IMG/VR virus record: IMGVR_UViG_3300009079_000095
Location: 1-27,886 of that record
Strand: one strand, 5' to 3'
DNA: 27,886 bases
From: a virus
Shown: one piece after another, positions 2,359 to 27,885 of the stretch
Position numbering within the stretch: position 1 is the stretch's first letter
Layout of the letters: every line of letters begins with the position of its first letter
Program-made: the position numbers and the translations under genes
Notes under the pieces: generated by a model
Database searches by the model: none
Told to the model about the DNA's origin: nothing
What the model saw: only the letters and a program-made list of their open reading frames with translations

Positions 2359-3273
2359 ATGAAAGTAAAAACAATTAACAAAGTAATTAAGAAGAAAATG
2401 GAAGATTGGTTATCAACAATAACCGATGAAGTTCTAACTATTGAAGTAAGAGAAAATATCTTACTATCAGGAGGCTCAATAGCAAGTATGCTATTAAAAG
2501 AAGATATCAATGATTTTGATATTTATATACAAGACCATTCTGTATTATTAAAATTAGCAAAGCACTATGCTAAATTTAATGACCTTACTGTACTTGATGG
2601 TAATAACAGAGAACATTATTTAGGATTGTTACCACCTGAAGAAAACTATACGGATATGCCTTATGGTAACACTTCATTTATGGCAGTAATGTATAAGTCA
2701 TTACATCCTGGTCAAGTGAAATTACAAATTGATGGTGCTGGTATAGCTATTGCAAATGAAGATATAGAAGAACAAAAAGCTAAAGGAAAGAAATACTTTC
2801 CTATTTTCTATTCTCAAAATGCAATATCATTATCAGATGATATTCAGATAGTATTACGTTTTAGTGGTACAGCTGAACAGATACACGAATCATTTGATTT
2901 CATACACGCTACAAATTATTGGACTTATAAAGATGGTTTGGTAACAAATATCAGAGCATTGGAAAGTCTATTGACTAAAGAGCTACGTTATCAGGGAAGT
3001 AAATATCCTTTAACCTCTGTAATACGAATGAAGAAATTCATTACGCGTCAGTGGACTATTAACGCAGGAGAAATATTGAAAATGTTATTTCAAATTTCAG
3101 ACTTAGACCTTAAAAACCCTGTCATATTAGAAGAACAATTGATAGGTGTAGATATAGCTTATTTCAGTCAGCTGATAAATATCATAAGAGATACTAAACC
3201 AGAGAAACTAACCAATAGTTATTTGGTACAGCTGATAGACAAAGTGTTTAACAATTTTGATGGAGACGAATAA
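2359..3273 (+). CDS. Nucleotidyltransferase-fold protein
   Basis: A 304-residue protein with the signature of the polymerase-beta-type nucleotidyltransferase fold: a GGS motif at residues 38-40 followed after one helix by D52-F-D54, the usual two metal-binding aspartates. A possible third acidic residue is D125 in a KLQID strand. The remainder has conserved-looking helical segments (FDFIHATNYW near 176; a region around 200-235 with the SKYPL and INAGE motifs) that I associate with phage-encoded members of this fold. Such enzymes transfer NMPs to proteins, RNA or small molecules; the substrate here cannot be deduced. It is the first gene after a terminator, so it probably has its own upstream promoter, and it is coupled to the next gene by TAATG. 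Confidence 0.65.
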   Translation: MKVKTINKVIKKKMEDWLSTITDEVLTIEVRENILLSGGSIASMLLKEDINDFDIYIQDHSVLLKLAKHYAKFNDLTVLDGNNREHYLGLLPPEENYTDMPYGNTSFMAVMYKSLHPGQVKLQIDGAGIAIANEDIEEQKAKGKKYFPIFYSQNAISLSDDIQIVLRFSGTAEQIHESFDFIHATNYWTYKDGLVTNIRALESLLTKELRYQGSKYPLTSVIRMKKFITRQWTINAGEILKMLFQISDLDLKNPVILEEQLIGVDIAYFSQLINIIRDTKPEKLTNSYLVQLIDKVFNNFDGDE

Positions 3274-3457: not shown

Positions 3458-3910
3458 ATGACATTAGAAGAATTTAGAAGAACAAGAGTTGAAATGAATC
3501 AACAACAATATCATACATTATATGATATTGACCATGAAATGGTTAAAGGAACTGCAAAGCTACATGTTTATGAAGGTGCTTTATACATTAGAGAAATGCT
3601 TGATGGTAGTTTCACATTAGATTTAGATACTAATGATTATACTCCAGATACTTCATTATATCGAGTTGAAGAAGACTTTTGGAATATATTCGCTAAAAAC
3701 GATATGAATCCAAAACCTAATCTTTCTGTTGAAGCCTATACTTTACTGAAAAACTTTAGAGAGGCACAGAATAAATTATTGATACATTGGTTAACTGAAG
3801 AAGATGATGCTGATTTAATGAATGAGCACTATCCTGAAGATGTAATGGAATTTGAAGAGATGACTCTTAAGTTATCACAGTGGGTTCAAGAAACTACCAA
3901 ACACGCATAA
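3458..3910 (+). CDS. Hypothetical acidic protein (150 aa)
   Basis: A 150-residue acidic, probably mainly helical protein of unknown family. Notable is an Asp/Glu-rich stretch at about residues 110-132 (TEEDDADLMNEH onward). The ATG follows the upstream stop after only two bases, in the AATTATG context used repeatedly in this window in place of a Shine-Dalgarno site. Its stop overlaps the next start. No signal peptide or membrane helix. Confidence 0.65.
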   Translation: MTLEEFRRTRVEMNQQQYHTLYDIDHEMVKGTAKLHVYEGALYIREMLDGSFTLDLDTNDYTPDTSLYRVEEDFWNIFAKNDMNPKPNLSVEAYTLLKNFREAQNKLLIHWLTEEDDADLMNEHYPEDVMEFEEMTLKLSQWVQETTKHA

Positions 3911-4116
3911 TGTATAAATTTTATAGAAAATTAGCAAGTGGTAAATGGAAGTATTCAGAAACTTTCAAGAGCACATTAGACCCATACTATCACGAACTTA
4001 TTAATTATTGTAATGATAATAAAGAAGGTGTGATAGATTGGAAATTAGTAAGAGATTTTGATAAGAAGATTATGTATAGTAATTGTAATGAATTAATTAA
4101 TACAATAGATAAATGA
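3910..4116 (+). CDS. Hypothetical basic protein (68 aa)
   Basis: Although the frame is open from 3880, I choose the ATG at 3910 because it forms a TAATG junction with the upstream stop, the dominant arrangement here, and avoids a 31-base overlap. The product is 68 residues, Lys/Tyr-rich with an amphipathic N-terminal half; no domain recognised. Its TGA stop is overlapped by the next small gene (ATGA). Confidence 0.6.
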   Translation: MYKFYRKLASGKWKYSETFKSTLDPYYHELINYCNDNKEGVIDWKLVRDFDKKIMYSNCNELINTIDK

Positions 4117-4283
4117 GCTACAAAATCAAATTAAGTATTACAGTTCCAACATTAAGAGAAGCTAAACTTGTATTGGAACGTTTAAAGAACTCTGTTAATT
4201 CAAACTTTGGAGAGTATGAAATAAACCTTAAAAAAGTACAACAGATAATTCCAAAAGATGAAAAAGAAGTTAATATTTTATAA
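4113..4283 (+). CDS. Hypothetical 56-aa protein
   Basis: A short frame recovered in the apparent gap after 4116. It begins in an ATGA overlap with the previous stop and ends with TAA at 4281-4283, ten bases before the next ATG. The 56-residue product has a plausible strand-helix-strand pattern (KIKLSITVPT, then REAKLVLERLKN, then YEINLKKVQQI), which looks like a small ferredoxin-like or beta-alpha-beta module, though this is inferred from pattern only. Function unknown. Confidence 0.6.
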   Translation: MSYKIKLSITVPTLREAKLVLERLKNSVNSNFGEYEINLKKVQQIIPKDEKEVNIL

Positions 4284-8660: not shown

Positions 8661-9048
8661 GGAAGCAATTCTAAAAGACTTAAATGAAAGAGCATCCGAA
8701 GATCCTTTCTTTGAGGTTAGATTTCAAAATGAAGAAAAGAATATAGATGATTGTATTACCTATATTCTAAATCAAGTTCAGAAAAGTGGATGTAATGGAT
8801 TTGAAGATAGTGAGATATTCAATATGGCTTATCATTATTACGATGAAGATAATATTGAAATAGGTGGTGCATTTAATGGTAGTGTTGTTGTTAATCACGT
8901 AGTAGTTCTTACAGAAGAAGAAAAAGCTGAAGCTAAACAGAAAGCTATCGACAGTCTTATACAACAAGAACGAAATAAAATGTTAAAGAAACCAGAGGCA
9001 CCTAAAACCTCAACATTATCAAGTGATAACGAACCTACTTTATTCTAA
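8638..9048 (+). CDS. pcfK: PcfK-like protein
   Basis: A 136-residue protein matching the PcfK family pattern from Bacteroidota conjugative elements: an N-terminal MKxTxAFK start, KNIDDCITYIL (residues 34-44), SGCNGF (50-55), AYHYYDED (64-71) and VVNHVVVLTEEEK (84-96), then a charged coiled segment and a C-terminal PTLF end. The matching of the extreme N-terminus supports the start at 8638 despite the 23-base overlap with the previous gene. PcfK and PcfJ are commonly encoded side by side on plasmids and integrative elements; biochemical function is not established. Here PcfJ follows immediately through a TAATG overlap, so the pair is preserved. The terminal LF-type tail could be a clamp-binding peptide, as in other replication-linked proteins, but this is inference. 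Confidence 0.8.
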   Translation: MKTTKAFKEAILKDLNERASEDPFFEVRFQNEEKNIDDCITYILNQVQKSGCNGFEDSEIFNMAYHYYDEDNIEIGGAFNGSVVVNHVVVLTEEEKAEAKQKAIDSLIQQERNKMLKKPEAPKTSTLSSDNEPTLF

Positions 9049-10382
9049 TGCAAGCAAAGACTAAATTTCAGAGAGAGATAGTGGCTTTAGATAAAAAGCT
9101 ACCAAAGATAACTCAAACCCAAATGAAGTGGGCCAGAGAGAACGCACATAGCTTTGTTGCTTTCCGTAATAAGTCAGGAAATATCCATTGTCTACATTGT
9201 GGTCACGTATATAAAGTTCATACTACACAAGGTTGGCAAGATGAAGTAATGGGTGATAACTGTCCTAACTGTAAGCATAAACTAAAAATAGTTTCAACGC
9301 AACATAGAACATACGGAGAAACAAGAGAGTTCAGAATAATAACAACTTTCAAAGAGTATCAAGTTATCAGACTATTTGAAATACGATGTACCTACAAAAC
9401 GAAAGAGAAAGGTGTTTATTGGATTTTTGAAAATTCAAGAATATATCTTAACGAACAAGGTAAACACGCTATCATTGGTTATGGTAGAATGGCTGGTTGG
9501 TATGGTAGTAGATTTTTTGGAGAGTTCTCTCTAAAGAATAACAAGTCTATCAATGCACACGACCAACATGTAAACTATACTTATCCACGTATTAAATATC
9601 TACCTATCATTAAAAGAAATGGTCTTGAAAAATACGATGATAATATTACACCGTTTACTACGTTCTGGTTATTGCTTACTTTTCCAATAGCTGAAACATT
9701 GCTAAAACTTGGATATGTAGATGGCTTTCAAACTTGTTGTTATAGCTACAGAAGAGAGCAGATACAGAAATATTGGTCTTCATTTAAGATAGTATTTAGA
9801 AATAAATATAAGATAAAGAAAATGGAAAATTATTTAGATTACTTAAAGCTTTTAGAAGAATTTGGTAAAGATTTAAGAAGTCCTAAATATGTTTGTCCAG
9901 AGAACTTTAAAGAAGCTCATAATGTCTATGTCAAGAAAAAACAAAAGCAATATGAAGCTATAAGAAGAATGAAAGATGAAGAACGTAAACAAGCAGAGCT
10001 TGAAAAATTACGTAAAGATAAAGAGTGGTATAGTAAACGTATGGAACGATGGAAAGAACTTGAATTTAAAAATGGAGATGTAATGATCACAGTTATAAAA
10101 ACTGTAGATGAAGTAGAGAAATTAGGTAATCTTTTTAAGCATTGTATTCATACTAATGGATATCATAGAGAAGAAGATGCACTATTACTTTGTGGTTACT
10201 ATAAAGGAAAACCTAAAGAAACTATAGAAGTTTCATTAGAGAATTTTACCATAGTTCAATCCAGAGGTTTAGGCAATAAAGCATCAAGGTATAATAAACC
10301 TATTATAGCTACTCTTACAAAGAACCTTAGAACTATCAAGAAGATAGCAAAGCAAAAAGAAGTCAAATTAAAATCAGCATAG
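9048..10382 (+). CDS. pcfJ: PcfJ-like protein with N-terminal zinc ribbon
   Basis: A 444-residue protein with two visible modules. Residues 48-75 form a zinc ribbon (C48-x2-C51 and C72-x2-C75). The C-terminal part (about 340-435) carries the PcfJ-type signature: a leucine-rich lead, LFKHCIHTN with its HC pair, a KPKETIEVSLENFTIVQSRG strand pair, then GNK. Between them lies a charged helical stretch (about 290-340, rich in Lys, Glu and Arg). PcfJ proteins are known from conjugative plasmids (named in pCF10) and are widespread in Bacteroidota mobile elements; a nucleic-acid-linked role is likely but unproven. It is coupled to PcfK upstream and followed, in the same frame after a TAG and one codon, by the DnaB-type helicase. 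Confidence 0.75.
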   Translation: MQAKTKFQREIVALDKKLPKITQTQMKWARENAHSFVAFRNKSGNIHCLHCGHVYKVHTTQGWQDEVMGDNCPNCKHKLKIVSTQHRTYGETREFRIITTFKEYQVIRLFEIRCTYKTKEKGVYWIFENSRIYLNEQGKHAIIGYGRMAGWYGSRFFGEFSLKNNKSINAHDQHVNYTYPRIKYLPIIKRNGLEKYDDNITPFTTFWLLLTFPIAETLLKLGYVDGFQTCCYSYRREQIQKYWSSFKIVFRNKYKIKKMENYLDYLKLLEEFGKDLRSPKYVCPENFKEAHNVYVKKKQKQYEAIRRMKDEERKQAELEKLRKDKEWYSKRMERWKELEFKNGDVMITVIKTVDEVEKLGNLFKHCIHTNGYHREEDALLLCGYYKGKPKETIEVSLENFTIVQSRGLGNKASRYNKPIIATLTKNLRTIKKIAKQKEVKLKSA

Positions 10383-16152: not shown

Positions 16153-16807
16153 TGGCATAGAAACCTATTTTGAATGGTGGCTTTTAGAAATGCAAAGTTC
16201 AGGCTATATAAAATCATTCGAAAGAGAAACAGAAGTGTTCTTAGTAGCGCCCATAGCAGAATATGGGCGTTACAAACGCTTTAAAAGGAAAGAAAAAGAG
16301 ATAGAAGCTTTTGCTTTATTTCCAAAGATTGAGTATTCATATGATTATAAAATATATTGGAATAAAGAAGCTGAATATCTATTTTATGAAGAAATAAATG
16401 AATCAGAAATATTTCAATTCGGAAGACCTGTTTTTGTAGCTCATAAAAATAAACATGAGCAAACAGATGAAAATGATGACTATCCAATAGTATCATATGT
16501 AGACGTTAAGCCAACCAATAGCGTACAACGTAAAGGTGGCAAAGTAAGTTCAAGTATAACCTTTCCTTTAAAGAATAGAATACTTTGGGATAGGAGTAGA
16601 ATTTATATCAATAAGGTAGTTCCTATGCCTATGAGTGGAACAGGATTTAAGTCAGCCTTATTTATTAAAACCTTTACACCTCAACGTTATTTATTAACTG
16701 ATGGTGGTAAACAGTTACGAAAGATTAAATATCCAGTAACAACAATGTTAGCCTATGTAAACAAACAAAAAACAGAAATAGAAACCTTATTAAAAAACAC
16801 TATATGA
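16136..16807 (+). CDS. Probable PD-(D/E)XK nuclease
   Basis: A 223-residue protein. The pair D70 (in EYSYDYKIYW) and D123-V-K125 (in SYVDVKP) fits the PD-(D/E)XK catalytic core, with the strand order seen in TnsA/T7 endonuclease I-type phage enzymes, where a Y-x-x-D-x-x-I strand is followed about 50 residues later by a (D/E)-x-K strand. Aromatic and basic residues surround the site, as expected for a DNA-cutting enzyme. It could resolve junctions or trim DNA ends together with the FEN-like exonuclease. No Holliday resolvase signature is certain. The gene overlaps the coiled-coil gene by 17 bases and contains a compact GC-rich hairpin near its 5' end (16248-16269). Confidence 0.55.
   Translation: MKTEINGIETYFEWWLLEMQSSGYIKSFERETEVFLVAPIAEYGRYKRFKRKEKEIEAFALFPKIEYSYDYKIYWNKEAEYLFYEEINESEIFQFGRPVFVAHKNKHEQTDENDDYPIVSYVDVKPTNSVQRKGGKVSSSITFPLKNRILWDRSRIYINKVVPMPMSGTGFKSALFIKTFTPQRYLLTDGGKQLRKIKYPVTTMLAYVNKQKTEIETLLKNTI
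16248..16269 (+). repeat. Compact hairpin inside the nuclease gene
   Basis: CGCCCATA (16248-16255) and TATGGGCG (16262-16269) are perfectly complementary with a 6-base loop. This makes it one of the most GC-rich dyads in a very AT-rich window. It falls about 112 bases after the nuclease start codon, so it may be an mRNA structure affecting translation or stability, or a coding coincidence. Confidence 0.45.
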
Positions 16808-17319
16808 GTCCAATTGCTATTATAATTATTACCTTATTCTGTATCGCACTTGCTACAGCTGTAATTTATCAATATGTAACTTTTAGGTCAAGAAACAATC
16901 CTTTTACAAAAGGGCTTGACTATCATTACATACCAGCTAAATTAGGAACTTTAGAACAGCATTTATTTACACTTATTAATACTTATAGGAAAGACTGTAA
17001 TGTTGATAAGGTATTAAAAGCTGATAGCTATGCTACTGAATTATCTAAACTAAGATGCCTTGAAATGATATCTCAAAATGAATTGAGTCATTTACAATGG
17101 GTAGATGAAGCTAATGAGTTAATTCAGCTTGGTGCTGATAGTGTAGGAGAGAATATAGGTTTTGGCTATAACAGTCCTGATGGTGTATTTAATGCTTGGG
17201 TAAAAAGTGAAAGCCATAGAAAGAATATGCTTAATGCTGAATGGGATTACATAGGTATAGGAATTGTAAAAAGTAGTAGTAACAGATATTGGTATTGCAC
17301 CTTATTTATAACACAATAA
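16804..17319 (+). CDS. Membrane-anchored CAP (SCP/PR-1-like) domain protein
   Basis: A 171-residue protein with an N-terminal hydrophobic helix (residues 3-25) followed by a CAP domain from about 48 to 171. The domain shows the usual signature: H96 in SHLQWVDEA, GENIGFG with E116, then W132, H138 in SESHRKNML, and a C-terminal GIGIV strand pair. The two His and Glu are the conserved cavity residues of CAP proteins. The helix could be an uncleaved anchor or a signal peptide; there is no lipobox. CAP domains are usually extracytoplasmic, so it may act at the cell envelope. Finding one among replication/recombination genes is unusual. ATGA-coupled to the nuclease gene. Confidence 0.75.
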   Translation: MSPIAIIIITLFCIALATAVIYQYVTFRSRNNPFTKGLDYHYIPAKLGTLEQHLFTLINTYRKDCNVDKVLKADSYATELSKLRCLEMISQNELSHLQWVDEANELIQLGADSVGENIGFGYNSPDGVFNAWVKSESHRKNMLNAEWDYIGIGIVKSSSNRYWYCTLFITQ

Positions 17320-18822: not shown

Positions 18823-19008
18823 ATGACTAAAAAGAAAAAATATATAACGACAATAAAAGATTTAGAAGAACTTATGAATGAACTTTCTAAAAATCGTCCT
18901 AAAAATTATTGGAAAGAATTAGATGAAAATTTAACGCCCCAACAAAGAAAAGCTTTTGATGAGGCGCTTAAAAGGGAAGCTAAAAATATTAAATGGAAGA
19001 AATTATAA
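18823..19008 (+). CDS. Hypothetical 61-aa basic protein, last gene of the plus-strand block
   Basis: A small basic, helical protein with a Lys-rich N-terminus and KWKKL C-terminus. It starts three bases after the previous stop, again in the AATTATG context. Its TAA stop lies inside the end of the giant minus-strand gene: the two 3' ends overlap by six bases with no intergenic space for a terminator. Function unknown. Confidence 0.6.
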   Translation: MTKKKKYITTIKDLEELMNELSKNRPKNYWKELDENLTPQQRKAFDEALKREAKNIKWKKL

Positions 19009-22000
19009 TCCTTTCCCTTCCATAGCTACTGCATCAGATGTTGGTGCAAGACCACTTAGCATATTTAAAATTGTTCTTACTGAAGATGGCATAGCTTTAA
19101 ATTCAAGCTTGCTGGTATTTACTAAATAATTAGCATCACCAGTAAGCTCTCTTGCTACACCTAAATTCATAGTTTCTCCTGCTATAATAGCTACAGAAAT
19201 CATTGCCAATCCTTTTAGTCCTGCATCAAAACGAGCTCTTATTTGAGGTTCTAATCCTGCCCGGTAAGCACCAAGTTGACCGATAGGTATTTCACCACCT
19301 GTAAACTTAGCTATCATTTCCCATACAGCTGTTAAGCTACCAATATGTTTTTCTCCGTAGATATTTACATCTTCTTTAGCAAACTTGTCATATACCATTG
19401 TAGGTATAAAACGACTGAACTGCATAATAGCTCTACCCCAAGAGTAACGTTGTATCAATCTCTGGTCTGTAGGTGTGTAACCTTTACCATGTGAGTTCTT
19501 AACTTCATTCTCCATTTTAGTAAGCTCTTGTGCTGTTATTTCAGTCTCTCCTACTTTGTAGTTACCATTTTCATCAAATTTATCATATTGCTCTTTTGAT
19601 AACATTCCTAAAAAGTGTACACCTTGAATCCATTTCTCTGAAGCCATCATAGGCCAAAGAGCAATATCAGTAAATATAGAATCTAATCCTGATGAGGATT
19701 GTAAGTTCACATCGTCATAGAAATTAGCATCTGTAAAGTTTATAGTTTTTAAGATACCCATAGCTTTTTTATGTTTACCCCAAAATCTACTCTCTCCCAT
19801 TAACCAGGCTTTACCACCTTGATTTTTAATGTTGTTATACTTTCCTACTACAACATTTCCAATAGTGTACATTCCTTTACCTACTGCTAATAGTTTCCAA
19901 CCCATTATGTATAATAGGTTTCCTCTAACAATAGCATCTATCACTCTATCTCCAGAACTGTCTTTTTGTAATTTCTTAGCTTTTAAGAAATACTCCTTAT
20001 AAACCTTTCTAACGAACTTGTTTTGGTTTACAAAGCCTTTCATCTTGTTATGTAATAAAAGTCCATCTACAGTAGCTTGTAGTGCTTTAAAACCTTTAAA
20101 GTTCTTATTACCTGTAATGAATAGTTGAGTATGTGTAAAATCAGAGAGTGCTTTGTTTAAATCTAATGAAGCCATATGGTCTGCATTTATCCAACCACCA
20201 TTCGCAAAGTTGTTTACCATTCCATCACCTAAGATAGTATGGTTGAACACATCTTCATGCTTAAACATAGAGCCATCTTCATTCTTTTTAACTTTAAAGA
20301 GTTTCTTTGCTTTATTGCGAAGTTGTATATACTCTTTATTAGTTTTCCAACTGCTCTTTTTATCTTGTCTAAAGATATCTTCTATATGTTTAAATCTCAT
20401 TAATTGACCTTCAAACTCTAACTCTACATCACCTATAGCCTCATCTATTGGTCGAGAGTTAATTAAGACACCTAATAGTCCTTTCCTACCAAAAGACTCT
20501 AATCTTCCCATACCAATCGCTGGTATTCCTCCACCAATATATTTATCGTCATTTATCTTTGGGTCTAACTCATTAGTGATCTCACGAAATGTTTTAGCAA
20601 AGTTGTATTCAACTTGTGTGATTTCATTATTAGCTAATTTTTGTCGTAAGATATTATCAGATAATAATGCATATCGTTTTTGGTCTTTACCACGTTCTGT
20701 ACGATATTCTGTAGTAATAATATTGCCATAAAGAATACGGTAAATATCATCACGATTTTTAAATAGTAATACTGCAGCTCTCTGTATTTTCTTTATGAAA
20801 CTATTTTTAGCTGGATTGTAATTGAATTTTTCAGCATATAAGTTTTCTGTAGCATCATTGATACGCGTAAGATATTTCTTACGTTCATTCATAAAGCCTT
20901 TAAACTCTGTCTCTAATTCACGTTGTACAGCTTGTGTTGCTGGATGTGTAGAGTCTATGTTATTAGTTTGAAACCAAGCTTTGATTACACCAATATCATT
21001 TTGACCTTCTTGTACTTTAGTAAGTGCTGATTGTTCATTGGAAGCACGTTGGGTAAGTTCAAGCATAACAGGAACCATAATGTTAGCCGCTGCATAAGCA
21101 TCATATCTACCCCAAGTGTTATAAAGTTTTAAAACTTCTTCAGTATCTATATCTTGTAGATGCTTTTTAAATTCTCCTTCTTTATACTTTTCCAGGAAGC
21201 TGTTTGTCTTTTTCTTATCTCTTAGATAATTAAGCCAAATACGAGCCTCCTGAATGTATGTTAAAGATTGCTTATATTCATAAGCGTTCATTAGTTCTGA
21301 TTGGTCTAGTGAGTCCTCTCTTGTATAATTATAGTAATCATCTTTAAAAAATCTACCTACGACACTACTTTTTTTTTTAGAGTTCTTTTCTTCTTGCAAA
21401 ATAGCATCTTCATCAATAGCCTCTTTACTCAATATGTTAGGAACTACACCATCATCTTTTATAAAACCACCATTATCATCAGTTGAATTATCATTAATCA
21501 ATATCATATGAGCTCTCTTAGGCACATTATTACTTGTTTCTAATAATTCTAATTTAGGTTCTCCAACAAGTTTAAAACCTCTACTTGTTTTACTTGTTAT
21601 TAAATCTCTTGCTATAGCTGACCATTCGTCATTATCTTTAGCTTTAGACTCACTATACTCGGTTATACCATCATCTTTAGTAACATAAGGGCCAATAGCA
21701 TTAATTTCGATAACCTTATTTATTCTCTTACCACCACTGATATAAGATACATTTACTCTAAAGTTTTCTCTACCATTTATCCTATTGGTAACAGCTTTAT
21801 TGTGCCCTAATTTTTTATACAACTCTTCAAAAGATTTAGAGCTTGGATCGTCTGTTAAATTTGGAAGCTCTTTATTTAAAAAGACACTTGGCAAATAGTT
21901 CATATCATTTTCTTCTGCCGCTAATGATTCTAAATCACGTATTCTTTTGTACGCTTTTTTAATGATATTATCAGCAAATTCTTCTTCATTTTCTTTAAAC

Positions 22001-25000
22001 ATTTTAGCTCTTGAAGTTATATAAGATGTAATATCATAAGGGAAAATAGGATATAAAGACTCTTCTCCATTCCAACCATTTTTCACTAAATCATACAATA
22101 CTAATTTACGTTGTAAGGCTAATGGCAATTCAGAAAATTCATTCTGTAGCATTATTCTATCAGGGTGCGTATAATGTTGTTGTAATACTTGTGGATTTAG
22201 TTTTATTTTTCCAGCTTCTATAATGATACCTTGCTTGAATAAACGAGAACGTGTATAATCAGTATCTTTATTTCCAACATTGTTTGGGTCTTCCCAATAA
22301 GTATGTAGCTCATCATCTAACATTTCTGCATAATTCTTCAACTCTGTAGCTAATGGCAATAGCGCATCTTCTCCAACTGCAATTTCATCTTCATATTGGA
22401 AAATATCATTTATCTCTGATACGTCAATATTATTAACACCTAACAATCTACCATAGATAAAAGGAACAAGATATTCAGAAAAATGCTTTAACTCTCTACC
22501 ACTTAAAGCAGAAGCTGTCACTTTATCTTTTACAAGTGTAATAATATCTCTAATAGAAGGGTTTTCAATAATACTCAAACGTCTTTGATGCTTGATAAAT
22601 TCTAAAGCCATTCTCTTATAATGCTTTAATTCAGGACTATCTATAATTAATGGTTCTATTGAATTTTCAGCTAAATCAGATTTCTCTCTAAAATAAAGAG
22701 TAGAATTTTTCTTTCCTTCTTTTTTACCAACCATTTCAGCTTCACGCTTCTTGTTAGTTATTAAAGCATTTAGATCCGTTACTTGCTTCTCTAAAGCAAA
22801 TACATTTAATTCCATCTTGTTATGACCTGAAGTAATATCAGTTATGATTGAAATATCATCACTTATTTTGGATAAATAATGCATCAGTCTTAGAATAGCA
22901 AATCCATTTTCATCACTATTATAACGATTTGACTTTGGGTCTACAGTAACACTAAATTCACTTGGATTGCTATAGATCTCTAAAGAGGTATTTTCATACT
23001 TCTCTTTATATTTATAAATTATAGACTTATAACTACCAGTTTCCAAATAGTCATTCCCCATTTCATTACGTTTCTCTATGTATTCTTTTGCCATAGGGTG
23101 ATTAAATAGTAACCCTATTTTCTGAATATCAAACCCTAAGTTCACTAATATCATTGCTGAAGAAATACTATTAATGTTTAAGTTTAAAGCATCAGCGTGT
23201 CCATTCTTAGTACTATCCAATACGATATTGGCAAGAATAGTAGATAAGTGAATACGTGAATTAATACCTTTATTCTTATTTATTGGTTTGTCTGCATTCC
23301 TATCTGTAAAACCTCTCTCTACTTGTCCATCTATATTGATGTTTACTAATTTTGGTTTTTCAGTTATTTCACCTTTTGAATTTTTACCTTTAACAGTACC
23401 ATTAGATAACATTGTTTCATAGGTAGCTAATAAGTTCAAGGCTCTATGCGTATTAAAAGCGATACCAATAGTCTGTTGAGCAACTACAGAGTTGTTATAT
23501 TGCTTTGTGTAATGTTCAGTACCAAAAGGAATAACAAAGTCTGCCTCCGCTTTTATAACAGCTAACTTTTTTTCAAAAGCTTTTTGGTCTATAAGACCTC
23601 TATTTAGTTTTTCTTCTAATGCTCTTTGTTGTTTATATTGCTCTGGATTTAAAGCTTCATTATTTTCTTCTATGATAGCATCCATATTACTCTCAAAACG
23701 CAATGGTGTTTCTAAAGTTATACGCATATCTTCAGCTGTCCATTGTTCTATTAACATATCAAATGCTTTATTCCAATTTCCATATCCAGCTTCTCTAATA
23801 GTACCTTTATCCTTAGCAGCCGAAGAGTCTCCCATTCTCTCATCTATAGAACCATCTTTTCTTTTAGAGGCTTGATAAATAAATAAAGCATCTCCATCGT
23901 GGTCAGCTCCGACTAACCAACTATATTCAGCAGGAACAATAATATTTGAAGCTCCGGTATCGTGAAAACCTACCACTTCTGCAACACCTACGAAAGCTGG
24001 TCCGTTATGTGGTATTCTTGTAAGCATTACTGTTTCTCCAGGTATATAAGTACCAATACGATTTCTTTCGTTTTTTACAGGAGATGAGTAGATACCATTT
24101 TCTTCAAGCATTAAATCCATAGCTTCTGTATTTACAGTACCATTAGGATGTAATAACTTTAATCTTTTTAAGGTATTGAAATTCGTTAAAAAACCTTTTT
24201 TATTTCTATGTAATAACTTTCCTCTTGCATTATCAACACCGCCAAACTCATCATATATAGACTCTCTTGCTACAGTCTGATCTCCAGGTAATGGTTCAGG
24301 AAGTACAATTTCAAATGGAACAGTAACTTGTTTCCCATCGACAATTTTCCAACCATAAGAGTTTAGCTTTGAAGTACCATTTATATATTCTTTAGATACT
24401 TTAGGATTGTTTTTTCTTCTTACATTCCCTTGCTCATCTATAAACTGTTCTACAGCTGGATAAGTTTTATCTCTATTCGGTCTATTTATAAAACCTTCTA
24501 CATTTTTATCAGTTACAAATTTATATCCCATATCTGAAATGGTCTGTCCATAAGTACCTGTTACTTTTAGATTGTTACCATGTCTGATAATTTGAGCTCT
24601 AAATTGGTTTCCTGCGAAATCAGCAACGTGAGGTGAATAAGGTAACTCTCCATAAGTTAAAGCCGCAATAGTATAAGGGTCTGAATTTAATTTATTAGCA
24701 GCTTCTCTTATAAATCTACTGTATTTAAAATCATCATCAATTTCATAACTCGCCATTTCATCAAGAACAGCCTTTTTAAAGTTTACCCATTTCTGTTGAT
24801 TGATAAGCTCTTGTATACGCAATGCATTATTCAGTGGCGCTCCTTTCTTAGCGTGTGGTATAGACGTTAATACTTGCGTTCCGAATGTCGCTTGTGTATA
24901 ACGCTTATCCATTATCTGTTGAGGTCCAAAATTAGAACCATCTAATCCTACAAAACCACTTTCAGTATAGTATAGTTTATCTAATAAAGCTTCATATTCT

Positions 25001-27885
25001 TTTTGTACTTCAGGGTTTTTAAGTTGCTCTAAACTGAATTTAGTCTTTAAACCTAATAGTTCTTTTGTATGAAATAACCCAGCTTTTTCAGCACTTACAG
25101 GTGTTACTATTGGAATGTATTTAGGTCTATCACTATCAACACTTGTTTGAGTTCTGAAATTAGGATCATATTCTTCTCCATATTTCTTTAGATAGTCGGC
25201 TTTAAACTTCTCATTTCTATTGGTAAGAATTTTCCATATAGGGTACAGATGCTGTTGATTACCATTAGTCACAGCTTCTTCTGTAAGTACAGTGGTATAA
25301 CCTTTCATTTGAGAAGTCTGATTTGCAAACCAAGCATTCTCTTTCTCTATAGTATGTGAGTATAGCTTATAACCTTTATTGAAATCTTTATTTAAAGCTT
25401 GTATAGCATCAGCGTGTTCTGGTAAGATATATTGAATACCATCATTACTAACGATAACATTTTTCTCCCATTGCTTAAAACGCTTTCTAAAAGCAGCTTC
25501 TGTTTCCTTACCATTTTCATCTTTTAATGGTCTGGTTAATTTAAACTCATCATCCATAGGTAGCATTTCAACTCTTAATCGAGGGTCTAATGCTATTACA
25601 GGCGCTACATGTCCTTTGTTATTTTTGGTAAGTCCATCTAAAAATAAACCTGGACTCATCATTTCGTGAACATAGAATGTATTGGCTACTCTATTAAAGA
25701 TAAAGTTCTTTATTAAAGTTTCTCCTTCTTTAGTTAGTTTATTAAGGACTGTTCCATCTTTAGTTTGATAGAATGGCTGTAAACTTTTTACTTTAGATAA
25801 GCTTTCAGAATGTTCAGCAAGATATTTTATCCATTTGTCAGCATCCTTTTTAATGGCTTTTTCAAATTGAGGAAAGTTAGCACCTATTTTATTAGGTATG
25901 CCTTCCATTGCTTTTTTCTTATCCTTGTTTAAAGACTCATAAATACTAAAAATCTTATTAAGATGGGAGGCTCCTTTAGCATTGAAATTGCCATCAGCAG
26001 TAAGTATATTTTCAATACGTGGCAATCCTACTAATAAACGTCTTGATGAGTTCCCTAAAATATCCATAGAGCCTAAATAATTAGAATCTTCATTCTTGAT
26101 ACTCTCTGTAAATTGTAACAACTCATTGATAAGTTGCTGTTCAGCAGACATATCTTTATAATTTTTAGCTTTATTGAACATTTCATTCTTACTACCAAAG
26201 TCAAGAACCATTAAAGGCAACTCTCCTTTCAAATGGAAGTTGTCATAAAACGACTCTAAAAGAGGGTTAAAAGAAGATACTGTTACAGATTTATCACTAT
26301 TAGAATATTTCGTGATAAATTCTTTCTTAGCTTTACCAGTATATTCAGAGTTTTTTAAATCAACAACAATCTTATTGAATAATTTAATAGCGTGATTGCT
26401 AAACATTCTTGTGGTAACATTGTTCCCAGTAGGCCCCTTAACAACACTTGTAGAACCAAAACGTTTTCCTGTTAATAGAATAGATGATATAATTCTCTCA
26501 TTTCTATCTTTTATAGGCTTTAACTTAGTTCTCACAGTACCAGCCATCATAAATTCATCATTAGACTTGTTTCCAGTAAAAGGAATAATCTCCTGTTCAG
26601 TAGCATTTAATAATTGCTTTAAAGCTGATACAATAGGAACGTTTTTCTTATTTATAATAAGATATCCATTTCCAATTATCTTTTTAGCAATGTTTAAATC
26701 ATGACCATAGAACTTGATTATTTCAGCAGCAGCTTCTTGAACTTCTCTAGTTTCAATATCACCTCTCTCTAAAATATCAATAGCATCTTCTAATAGATTT
26801 TTCTGTTCTATAGTTTTACGAGATAATTGTTTTAATGTTCTTTTAATGATAATAGGGTCATTAGCTGATTGAGCTGTTACAGAAGTGTATTCTCCATTCT
26901 TATCAACAGTATGAATGATACCAGGTATTATTGCTGTATTTCCATATAGCAAATGCATAGTTACTAACCTCTGTAATGCATCTTGTTTAAATTCAGCATT
27001 AAGATGTTTCATAAATTCTTTTTGATGAATATCATTTGTTTGTTCTAAAACTCTGATAAAATCAATAGGTGAATCATACATATAAGCTAAATCCATTAAT
27101 CCCTCTGTAAACTTATTAAGGTTAATACCTTCAGTGTACATAGCATCAACTTTCTTAGCATTAGGATCATTTTTAACAGCTTCTATTTCAGCTGATTTTC
27201 TTTCGTTAGATACTTTATTAAATTGCTCTACAAAGTGTTTTATAACTTCTGTAGTTTTCATCATTGTGGCATTGTAATTATCATCCCACATTGTTCCTAT
27301 GTTAGTTTCTATGTCTTGATTTAATTTCTCTAACGCATCAACTTGTGAAAATTCTTCATTCGCTTCTGGTAAAGGTCTATCCCATAAATCCCAATCATCT
27401 ACAAGAGTACCCTTTTTATCCTCATCTATTTTGATAGGAGCATAAAAAGCCTCTACCATTTTTATATCTGCTTTGTTTTGCTTATTTCTTGATTTAGCTT
27501 GCTCTTCACGTAGCCTTTTCATAATATCTAAATTATCCTCTTTGGTAATTGTACTCTTTTCATTGTCAAGAGCAAATCTACCACCTACAGTAACAGGCTT
27601 TCCTTGTATCATAGATACAAAGTTATTCATGATATGGTCGTTGATATTAGTACCATCTAATTTTTCTTCAGATAATTTTTGAGCTAAATTGAAGTTGTTA
27701 TCTTCTTGCTTTTTAGCTTTATCTTTAATACGTCTCCACCAATTTTTAACTTGTGCTTGTCTTGGTAAATCTGTTCTTGGATTGAAATATTTAGAGAACT
27801 TTTTAGACATAGGTCCTTGTAAGTAATTAGCAAACAATTCATCCATAATAACAGGTTGTTCGTGCATAGGAGCTTTACGAGCCAT
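19003..27885 (-). CDS. Giant crAss-like phage virion RNA polymerase polyprotein (5' end at window edge)
   Basis: A 2960-residue frame read right to left, with an ATG at the window's edge, so the protein may extend further. At about residues 1275-1340 is a double-psi beta-barrel segment of multisubunit-type RNA polymerases: a YIPGETVMLTRIPHNGP lead (the counterpart of the beta' LHRLG region) and the metal-binding motif D1328-H-D1330-G-D1332 (ADHDGDALF). This matches the D-x-D-G-D triad of the YonO/QDE-1-like enzymes known as gp66 in phage phi14:2 and relatives, which are packaged in the virion and injected to transcribe early genes. The first ~1000 residues and the region ~1400-2300 are long and mostly helical or mixed; I cannot assign the second barrel. 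The last ~300 residues contain two hydrophobic stretches (about 2655-2680 and 2888-2907), suggesting a membrane-active ejection or portal-tunnel part. No in-frame stop interrupts the whole length. Confidence 0.8.
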   Translation of the reverse strand: MARKAPMHEQPVIMDELFANYLQGPMSKKFSKYFNPRTDLPRQAQVKNWWRRIKDKAKKQEDNNFNLAQKLSEEKLDGTNINDHIMNNFVSMIQGKPVTVGGRFALDNEKSTITKEDNLDIMKRLREEQAKSRNKQNKADIKMVEAFYAPIKIDEDKKGTLVDDWDLWDRPLPEANEEFSQVDALEKLNQDIETNIGTMWDDNYNATMMKTTEVIKHFVEQFNKVSNERKSAEIEAVKNDPNAKKVDAMYTEGINLNKFTEGLMDLAYMYDSPIDFIRVLEQTNDIHQKEFMKHLNAEFKQDALQRLVTMHLLYGNTAIIPGIIHTVDKNGEYTSVTAQSANDPIIIKRTLKQLSRKTIEQKNLLEDAIDILERGDIETREVQEAAAEIIKFYGHDLNIAKKIIGNGYLIINKKNVPIVSALKQLLNATEQEIIPFTGNKSNDEFMMAGTVRTKLKPIKDRNERIISSILLTGKRFGSTSVVKGPTGNNVTTRMFSNHAIKLFNKIVVDLKNSEYTGKAKKEFITKYSNSDKSVTVSSFNPLLESFYDNFHLKGELPLMVLDFGSKNEMFNKAKNYKDMSAEQQLINELLQFTESIKNEDSNYLGSMDILGNSSRRLLVGLPRIENILTADGNFNAKGASHLNKIFSIYESLNKDKKKAMEGIPNKIGANFPQFEKAIKKDADKWIKYLAEHSESLSKVKSLQPFYQTKDGTVLNKLTKEGETLIKNFIFNRVANTFYVHEMMSPGLFLDGLTKNNKGHVAPVIALDPRLRVEMLPMDDEFKLTRPLKDENGKETEAAFRKRFKQWEKNVIVSNDGIQYILPEHADAIQALNKDFNKGYKLYSHTIEKENAWFANQTSQMKGYTTVLTEEAVTNGNQQHLYPIWKILTNRNEKFKADYLKKYGEEYDPNFRTQTSVDSDRPKYIPIVTPVSAEKAGLFHTKELLGLKTKFSLEQLKNPEVQKEYEALLDKLYYTESGFVGLDGSNFGPQQIMDKRYTQATFGTQVLTSIPHAKKGAPLNNALRIQELINQQKWVNFKKAVLDEMASYEIDDDFKYSRFIREAANKLNSDPYTIAALTYGELPYSPHVADFAGNQFRAQIIRHGNNLKVTGTYGQTISDMGYKFVTDKNVEGFINRPNRDKTYPAVEQFIDEQGNVRRKNNPKVSKEYINGTSKLNSYGWKIVDGKQVTVPFEIVLPEPLPGDQTVARESIYDEFGGVDNARGKLLHRNKKGFLTNFNTLKRLKLLHPNGTVNTEAMDLMLEENGIYSSPVKNERNRIGTYIPGETVMLTRIPHNGPAFVGVAEVVGFHDTGASNIIVPAEYSWLVGADHDGDALFIYQASKRKDGSIDERMGDSSAAKDKGTIREAGYGNWNKAFDMLIEQWTAEDMRITLETPLRFESNMDAIIEENNEALNPEQYKQQRALEEKLNRGLIDQKAFEKKLAVIKAEADFVIPFGTEHYTKQYNNSVVAQQTIGIAFNTHRALNLLATYETMLSNGTVKGKNSKGEITEKPKLVNINIDGQVERGFTDRNADKPINKNKGINSRIHLSTILANIVLDSTKNGHADALNLNINSISSAMILVNLGFDIQKIGLLFNHPMAKEYIEKRNEMGNDYLETGSYKSIIYKYKEKYENTSLEIYSNPSEFSVTVDPKSNRYNSDENGFAILRLMHYLSKISDDISIITDITSGHNKMELNVFALEKQVTDLNALITNKKREAEMVGKKEGKKNSTLYFREKSDLAENSIEPLIIDSPELKHYKRMALEFIKHQRRLSIIENPSIRDIITLVKDKVTASALSGRELKHFSEYLVPFIYGRLLGVNNIDVSEINDIFQYEDEIAVGEDALLPLATELKNYAEMLDDELHTYWEDPNNVGNKDTDYTRSRLFKQGIIIEAGKIKLNPQVLQQHYTHPDRIMLQNEFSELPLALQRKLVLYDLVKNGWNGEESLYPIFPYDITSYITSRAKMFKENEEEFADNIIKKAYKRIRDLESLAAEENDMNYLPSVFLNKELPNLTDDPSSKSFEELYKKLGHNKAVTNRINGRENFRVNVSYISGGKRINKVIEINAIGPYVTKDDGITEYSESKAKDNDEWSAIARDLITSKTSRGFKLVGEPKLELLETSNNVPKRAHMILINDNSTDDNGGFIKDDGVVPNILSKEAIDEDAILQEEKNSKKKSSVVGRFFKDDYYNYTREDSLDQSELMNAYEYKQSLTYIQEARIWLNYLRDKKKTNSFLEKYKEGEFKKHLQDIDTEEVLKLYNTWGRYDAYAAANIMVPVMLELTQRASNEQSALTKVQEGQNDIGVIKAWFQTNNIDSTHPATQAVQRELETEFKGFMNERKKYLTRINDATENLYAEKFNYNPAKNSFIKKIQRAAVLLFKNRDDIYRILYGNIITTEYRTERGKDQKRYALLSDNILRQKLANNEITQVEYNFAKTFREITNELDPKINDDKYIGGGIPAIGMGRLESFGRKGLLGVLINSRPIDEAIGDVELEFEGQLMRFKHIEDIFRQDKKSSWKTNKEYIQLRNKAKKLFKVKKNEDGSMFKHEDVFNHTILGDGMVNNFANGGWINADHMASLDLNKALSDFTHTQLFITGNKNFKGFKALQATVDGLLLHNKMKGFVNQNKFVRKVYKEYFLKAKKLQKDSSGDRVIDAIVRGNLLYIMGWKLLAVGKGMYTIGNVVVGKYNNIKNQGGKAWLMGESRFWGKHKKAMGILKTINFTDANFYDDVNLQSSSGLDSIFTDIALWPMMASEKWIQGVHFLGMLSKEQYDKFDENGNYKVGETEITAQELTKMENEVKNSHGKGYTPTDQRLIQRYSWGRAIMQFSRFIPTMVYDKFAKEDVNIYGEKHIGSLTAVWEMIAKFTGGEIPIGQLGAYRAGLEPQIRARFDAGLKGLAMISVAIIAGETMNLGVARELTGDANYLVNTSKLEFKAMPSSVRTILNMLSGLAPTSDAVAMEGKGL

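Follow-up and report, generated by a model that had tools for sequence, protein, structure and literature searches.

A giant gene in an environmental viral contig very probably encodes the virion RNA polymerase (RNAP) of an environmental crAss-like phage lineage, a three-in-one protein that would be packed into the particle, ejected and used to transcribe the early genes. Profile comparisons suggest that the 4,163-aa protein unites three crAss virion RNAP proteins, fused in collinear order, since both of its ends match the partner proteins and the decoy controls were clean. It is a large, well-conserved form of an enzyme already known and does not represent a new kind.

Full length and environmental distribution of the giant ORF

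The window, i.e., the whole stretch of DNA analysed here, comprises 27,886 nt (positions 1 to 27,886 of the IMG/VR virus record IMGVR_UViG_3300009079_000095). A giant ORF on its minus strand extends over 2,960 codons without an internal stop, from a start codon at 27885 to a stop ending at 19003, and the plus strand over 19003-27885 is full of stops. An earlier note on this DNA had described an unbroken 8.9-kb frame of 2960+ residues; the frame is indeed unbroken, but 2,960 is a cut-off length, with the ATG lying one base from the contig end. The note had also supposed that the true start was missing, which was borne out when a search of viral contigs gave two longer contigs with 99.9% identity to the window (L002, 78,890 bp; L003, 60,291 bp), in both of which the same gene encodes 4,163 aa. 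Residue 1 of the window ORF is residue 1204 of the full protein, and the 1,203 N-terminal residues outside the window include a conserved HExxH motif. The features are collected in Table 1.

Homologs were gathered from environmental viral contigs with the TerL of the longer contig, followed by profile searches. This yielded 37 distinct homologous proteins, including 29 complete ORFs of 3,744-4,230 aa (median 3,917). Because all 37 keep both the frame and the catalytic motif, neither is a product of chance. The domain profiles of the N-part, the zincin, the RNAP core and the C-part match almost all of these proteins, and the predicted three-part fusion holds across this large environmental lineage. 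The most divergent member, a protein of 4,230 aa encoded at L113:893-13585 on a contig of 152,878 bp, carries its DSDGD at 3078, about 600 residues later than in the others, and its 1,502-aa neighbour ORF carries another HExxH. No relatives were found in a search of bacterial and archaeal genome contigs, so no host link was obtained.

Table 1 Features of the giant ORF, with nucleotide positions in the window
Feature	Position	Strand	Evidence
Portion inside the window (residues 1204-4163) of the fused virion-type RNA polymerase ORF (4,163 aa in full), lacking its 5' end	19003..27885	-	contig ends
DELFANYL helix, E16 (full-length E1219), candidate third zinc ligand of the putative zincin	27820..27843	-	E 35/37
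AlphaFold2-modelled region (window aa 697-1597)	23095..25797	-	pLDDT 83.1, pTM 0.81, best PDB match 6vr4_A
Predicted two-barrel RNAP core as aligned with crAss RNAPs (window aa 719-1865)	22291..25731	-	hhalign Prob 99.9, E 2.2e-33, 834 columns
K840...K861, near-invariant lysines 21 residues apart	25303..25368	-	K2043 36/37, K2064 37/37 (full numbering)
PGETVMLTRIPHNGP, residues 1282-1296, predicted strand of beta'-type barrel	23998..24042	-	TRIP: R2493, P2495 37/37
D1328-H-D1330-G-D1332, predicted catalytic metal-binding motif	23890..23904	-	all three D and the G, 37/37
C-terminal module (window aa 2642-2951; full-length 3845-4154)	19033..19962	-	hhalign Prob 98.5, E 2.4e-15

A crAss-type two-barrel polymerase core

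Single-sequence searches gave nothing usable for the window protein (phmmer against the PDB, Pfam and PHROGs scans, and tblastn against INPHARED), and tblastn of the core at E 10 returned weak matches alone (E 0.1-1), which lay at the motif region of crAss RNAPs. A profile of 9 sequences had no match in the PDB, and an AlphaFold model from the same number of sequences showed a poor barrel (pLDDT 61), its sole significant PDB match being 6vr4. The poor barrel was cured in the AlphaFold2 model of window aa 697-1597, which was built from 36 sequences. In a Foldseek search of the PDB with this core model, the best match was the phi14:2 virion RNAP (6vr4_A; E 9e-14, probability 1.00, TM 0.52 by query length). 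QDE-1 structures ranked next (E 2.8e-4), and weaker matches came from RDR2 of plants and from the largest Pol I and Pol II subunits. Among predicted viral structures, 38 matched at E<=1e-3, all with probability 1.00; the named ones are mostly crAss-like phage proteins, several of them mislabelled as helicases. The hhalign comparison of the core with Crassvirales RNAPs reached the E-value given in Table 1, against 0.78 for a reversed decoy, and that with phi14:2 gp66 alone reached 3.6e-13. By Foldseek and hhalign together, the two-barrel single-chain core is closest in structure to phi14:2 gp66. Acinetobacter phage vB_AbaM_ME3 gave a further match to the RNAP model, though a weak one (E 0.017).

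The DxDGD motif was found in all 37 homologs, with the three aspartates and the glycine identical throughout. Taken with the match to 6VR4 and the profile E-value of 2e-33, this bears out the claim of a crAss-like RNAP with a catalytic motif, and the motif sits, as structure prediction had been asked to show, in a predicted two-barrel RNAP fold with phi14:2 gp66 as the best PDB match. The same evidence, namely the predicted fold, the invariant catalytic residues and the profile match, makes it scarcely credible that DHDGD arose by chance in an unrelated tape-measure or other virion protein, or belongs to a dead polymerase, although the empty single-sequence searches would fit such an explanation. 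The enzyme is probably catalytically active, and K840 and K861 are candidate nucleotide-contacting lysines of the beta-type barrel.

ADHDGDALF occupies residues 1327-1335, not 1326-1334 as first given, and the accompanying numbering of D1328-D1332 was right. The second position of DxDGD is taken by N (8), K (6), M (6), L (5), H (4), F (3), Y (2), D (2) and S (1) in the 37 homologs. Because this position varies freely, with nine residues seen, the histidine, which had been singled out as replacing a phenylalanine, is on present sequences unremarkable and without special meaning. The motif contexts align (window, SNIIVPAEYSWLVGADHDGDALFIY; crAss002, STIVVPDEWVLQTGADFDIDSIYGIY). D-F-D-G-D had been quoted as the phi14:2-type motif; the crAss RNAPs checked, phi14:2 included, in fact carry DFDID or DFDVD, and Fpv3 carries DYDID. 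As far as these alignments go, it is the glycine at the fourth motif position, not the histidine, that sets the lineage apart from the known crAss enzymes, which have I or V there.

Terminal modules and the candidate zincin

In hhalign comparisons, full-length residues 118-454 aligned with the N-terminus of the crAss002 gp32 group (E 5.5e-13), and a shorter stretch of the N-part matches phi14:2 g067 (7e-8) and crAss001 gp47 (2.5e-5). This N-terminal match spans about 340 of about 1,000 residues, and the N-part did not match that of the Suoliviridae (E 0.027). At the other end, the C-terminal module is homologous to the C-terminus of crAss001 gp49 / phi14:2 g065, with E 7e-11 against phi14:2 g065 alone and 7.5e-9 against the gene downstream of the cr1_1 RNAP; the conservation profile of the whole protein peaks in this module. 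Non-cognate pairs and reversed controls for the end modules all had E-values of at least 0.001. The order of the modules is that of the phi14:2 genes g067, g066 and g065. A fusion of the polymerase with other ejected virion proteins, which the earlier note had proposed from the extra length, is therefore supported, since the N- and C-terminal extras match crAss virion RNAP-associated proteins. As a separate observation, tblastn with phi14:2 g065 gave matches in two phage records from Acinetobacter baumannii; together with the weak match of the RNAP model to vB_AbaM_ME3, they make a wider spread of the module possible.

HEFAH lies at full-length residues 1122-1126, just outside the window. HExxH is kept in 34 of the 37 homologs and the downstream acidic E in 35, i.e., the motif occurs together with a conserved acidic ligand as in a zincin. 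The domain had no Pfam match, and its profile, compared with gut crAss zincins, stayed below significance (E 0.03); it is a candidate zincin-type peptidase domain, called at the motif level, which may have peptidase activity. Its conservation is in keeping with a polyprotein, in which the zincin would cut its own chain, either inside the particle or once ejected, to release the three parts found separately in phi14:2 and crAss001; the conserved blocks are moreover separated by poorly conserved stretches, and the three parts are separate proteins in the Steigviridae. We nevertheless regard such processing as unlikely, given that no cleavage site or processed product is known, that two members (L140; L107, HExxxH) seem to be without an intact HExxH yet keep the full-length frame, and that crAss002, ctbg_1 and jaberico already have the zincin on a protein other than the RNAP. 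Somewhat less likely again is the more specific proposal of a previously unremarked environmental crAss-like lineage whose whole injected transcription complex sits on one chain and is cut by the zincin during or after ejection.

Arrangement of the same parts in known phages

The three-in-one virion RNAP that we favour was compared with known systems. Phage phi14:2 (PDB 6VR4; Crassvirales, Steigviridae) has the same two-barrel single-chain RNAP core and the same order of the three parts, but on three ORFs of 1,797, 2,180 and 1,421 aa (g067, g066 and g065), with DFDID instead of DHDGD and no HExxH in g067. The arrangement of the Steigviridae is mostly one of three ORFs. The records of phi14:2 g065, g066 and g067 all carry an MS/MS virion note, and MS of crAss001 virions revealed gp47, gp49 and gp50 (PMC10172136).

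The Intestiviridae pairs (crAss002 gp32+gp33; ctbg_1) share the homologous N-part, the zincin motif at the C-terminal end of the N-part protein, directly upstream of the RNAP gene, and an RNAP carrying the gp49-like part (E 1.6e-6); they differ in having the N-part and zincin on a separate ORF. The pair in ctbg_1 is labelled 'RNAP associated protein fused to zincin protease' and RNAP. The Suoliviridae (cr1_1, cr10_1, cr4_1, cr60_1, cr50_1, cr118_1 and cr113_1) likewise have a single RNAP ORF, of 4,328-4,946 aa, and in cr1_1, cr10_1, cr4_1 and cr60_1 an HExxH precedes the catalytic motif by about 1,430-1,520 residues, compared with 1,409 here. In this family, however, the gp49-like part is on a separate downstream ORF (shown for cr1_1, elsewhere assumed by position), the motif is DFD(I/V)D and the N-part has no detectable homology to that of the window lineage. 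The Suoliviridae RNAP ORFs (L151, L153, L154, L155, L160, L161 and L163) are labelled hypothetical, nuclear pore complex-like, DNA helicase or DprA-like, and those of cr4_1 and cr60_1 are open only with TAG read as a residue. Flavobacterium phage Fpv3 gp32 (L148:33939-46802; 4,287 aa), labelled virion structural protein, has DYDID at 3116, in the setting typical of crAss RNAPs; it also has an HExxH, which at 4065 follows the motif instead of preceding it.

In the known crAss phages checked, the complex is split into 2 or 3 ORFs, although some of them already have single ORFs as long as 4,100-4,950 aa; all parts in one ORF were not found in the known records examined. One-ORF forms are not claimed here as previously unknown, because a review gives RNAP genes of up to about 6,000 aa with 1-3 subunits (PMC10136315). 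A literature search for a zincin with a crAss-like RNAP returned nothing, and a prior account in the phi14:2 RNAP paper or the 2018 crAss family paper is possible.

A giant of another type is gp96 of the Thermus phage P23-45 (5,002 aa), a tail-tape-measure-fused virion RNAP (PMC10770324). It too is a virion RNAP of giant size joined to further parts that are ejected from the virion, and it has a metallopeptidase domain as well as DFDGD (PMC10770324), but it combines a siphovirus tape measure with an RNAP at the N-terminus that belongs by structure to a different two-barrel clade. An assignment of the window protein to this type was rejected in view of crAss-type short-tail virion genes and no tape-measure match.

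Genomic context and placement of the phage

The longer contig gave Pfam matches to crAss_MUZ (Crassvirus muzzle; E 1.4e-66) and CrAss_Ring_2 (E 1.4e-11), a match of its TerL to crAss TerL (1e-22), and head-and-packaging matches for TerL, portal and MCP. The RNAP gene lies beside these crAss-type structural and cargo genes, downstream of them on the same strand, with cargo-size ORFs just upstream. An intracellular, non-virion RNAP made during infection, like P23-45 gp64, is improbable against this background: the gene sits in the structural gene block, all three parts are homologous to virion-detected proteins, and in P23-45 itself the virion RNAP is the fused giant one, not the small one (PMC10770324). 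The crAss muzzle makes up residues 120-1425 of the 3,268-aa muzzle protein at L007:1867-11670, and Ig-like, DUF5122 beta-propeller and DUF285 repeats come after it; the next ORF (L007:11699-12955) encodes the muzzle C-terminal domain.

In the RNAP tree, a branch with support 0.997 separates all 37 environmental proteins from the known crAss families and Fpv3, and no placement inside a named Crassvirales family was obtained among the families sampled. Such a placement would matter for assigning a family, whereas crAss-like status does not depend on it. The phage is best called crAss-like or Crassvirales-related, as a lineage that lies outside those named families that were sampled.

The remaining 18.8 kb of the window form a convergent block on the opposite strand, with genes for a DnaB helicase, a 5'-3' exonuclease and an HU-like protein. 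A PcfJ-like protein (9048-10379; Pfam E 3.4e-26) is encoded directly upstream of DnaB, and a CAP (cysteine-rich secretory/PR-1-like) domain protein (16804-17316; Pfam E 8.8e-13) with an N-terminal hydrophobic segment also lies in this presumed early gene block.

Discussion

In the model that we propose, one late-transcribed 4,163-aa chain would comprise, in order, a g067/gp32/gp47-like N-part, an HExxH zincin-type domain, the two-barrel RNAP and a gp49/g065-like C-part. By analogy with phi14:2 and crAss001, this chain would be packed into the capsid as cargo, and it may leave through the tail with the DNA by threading and refold in the host. The injected RNAP, with Mg2+ held by D1328/D1330/D1332 during transcription, would then transcribe the early genes, plausibly the opposite-strand block of the window, whose DnaB helicase, 5'-3' exonuclease and HU-like genes are of the sort that such an enzyme would be expected to transcribe first. 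Presence in the virion and early-gene transcription are suggested here through the homologs only.

Overall, these results indicate that the three large crAss virion RNAP proteins are parts of one unit: the same modules occur as three ORFs in the Steigviridae, as two ORFs split at different joints in the Intestiviridae and Suoliviridae, and as one ORF in the window lineage, which supports the view that the three proteins travel and act together. The poorly annotated gp49/g065 and gp47/g067 proteins would thereby gain a role tied to the polymerase, and the large, diverse alignment supplied here makes their structures predictable. Finally, the passage of so long a chain through a podovirus portal makes the question of unfold-and-refold ejection concrete.
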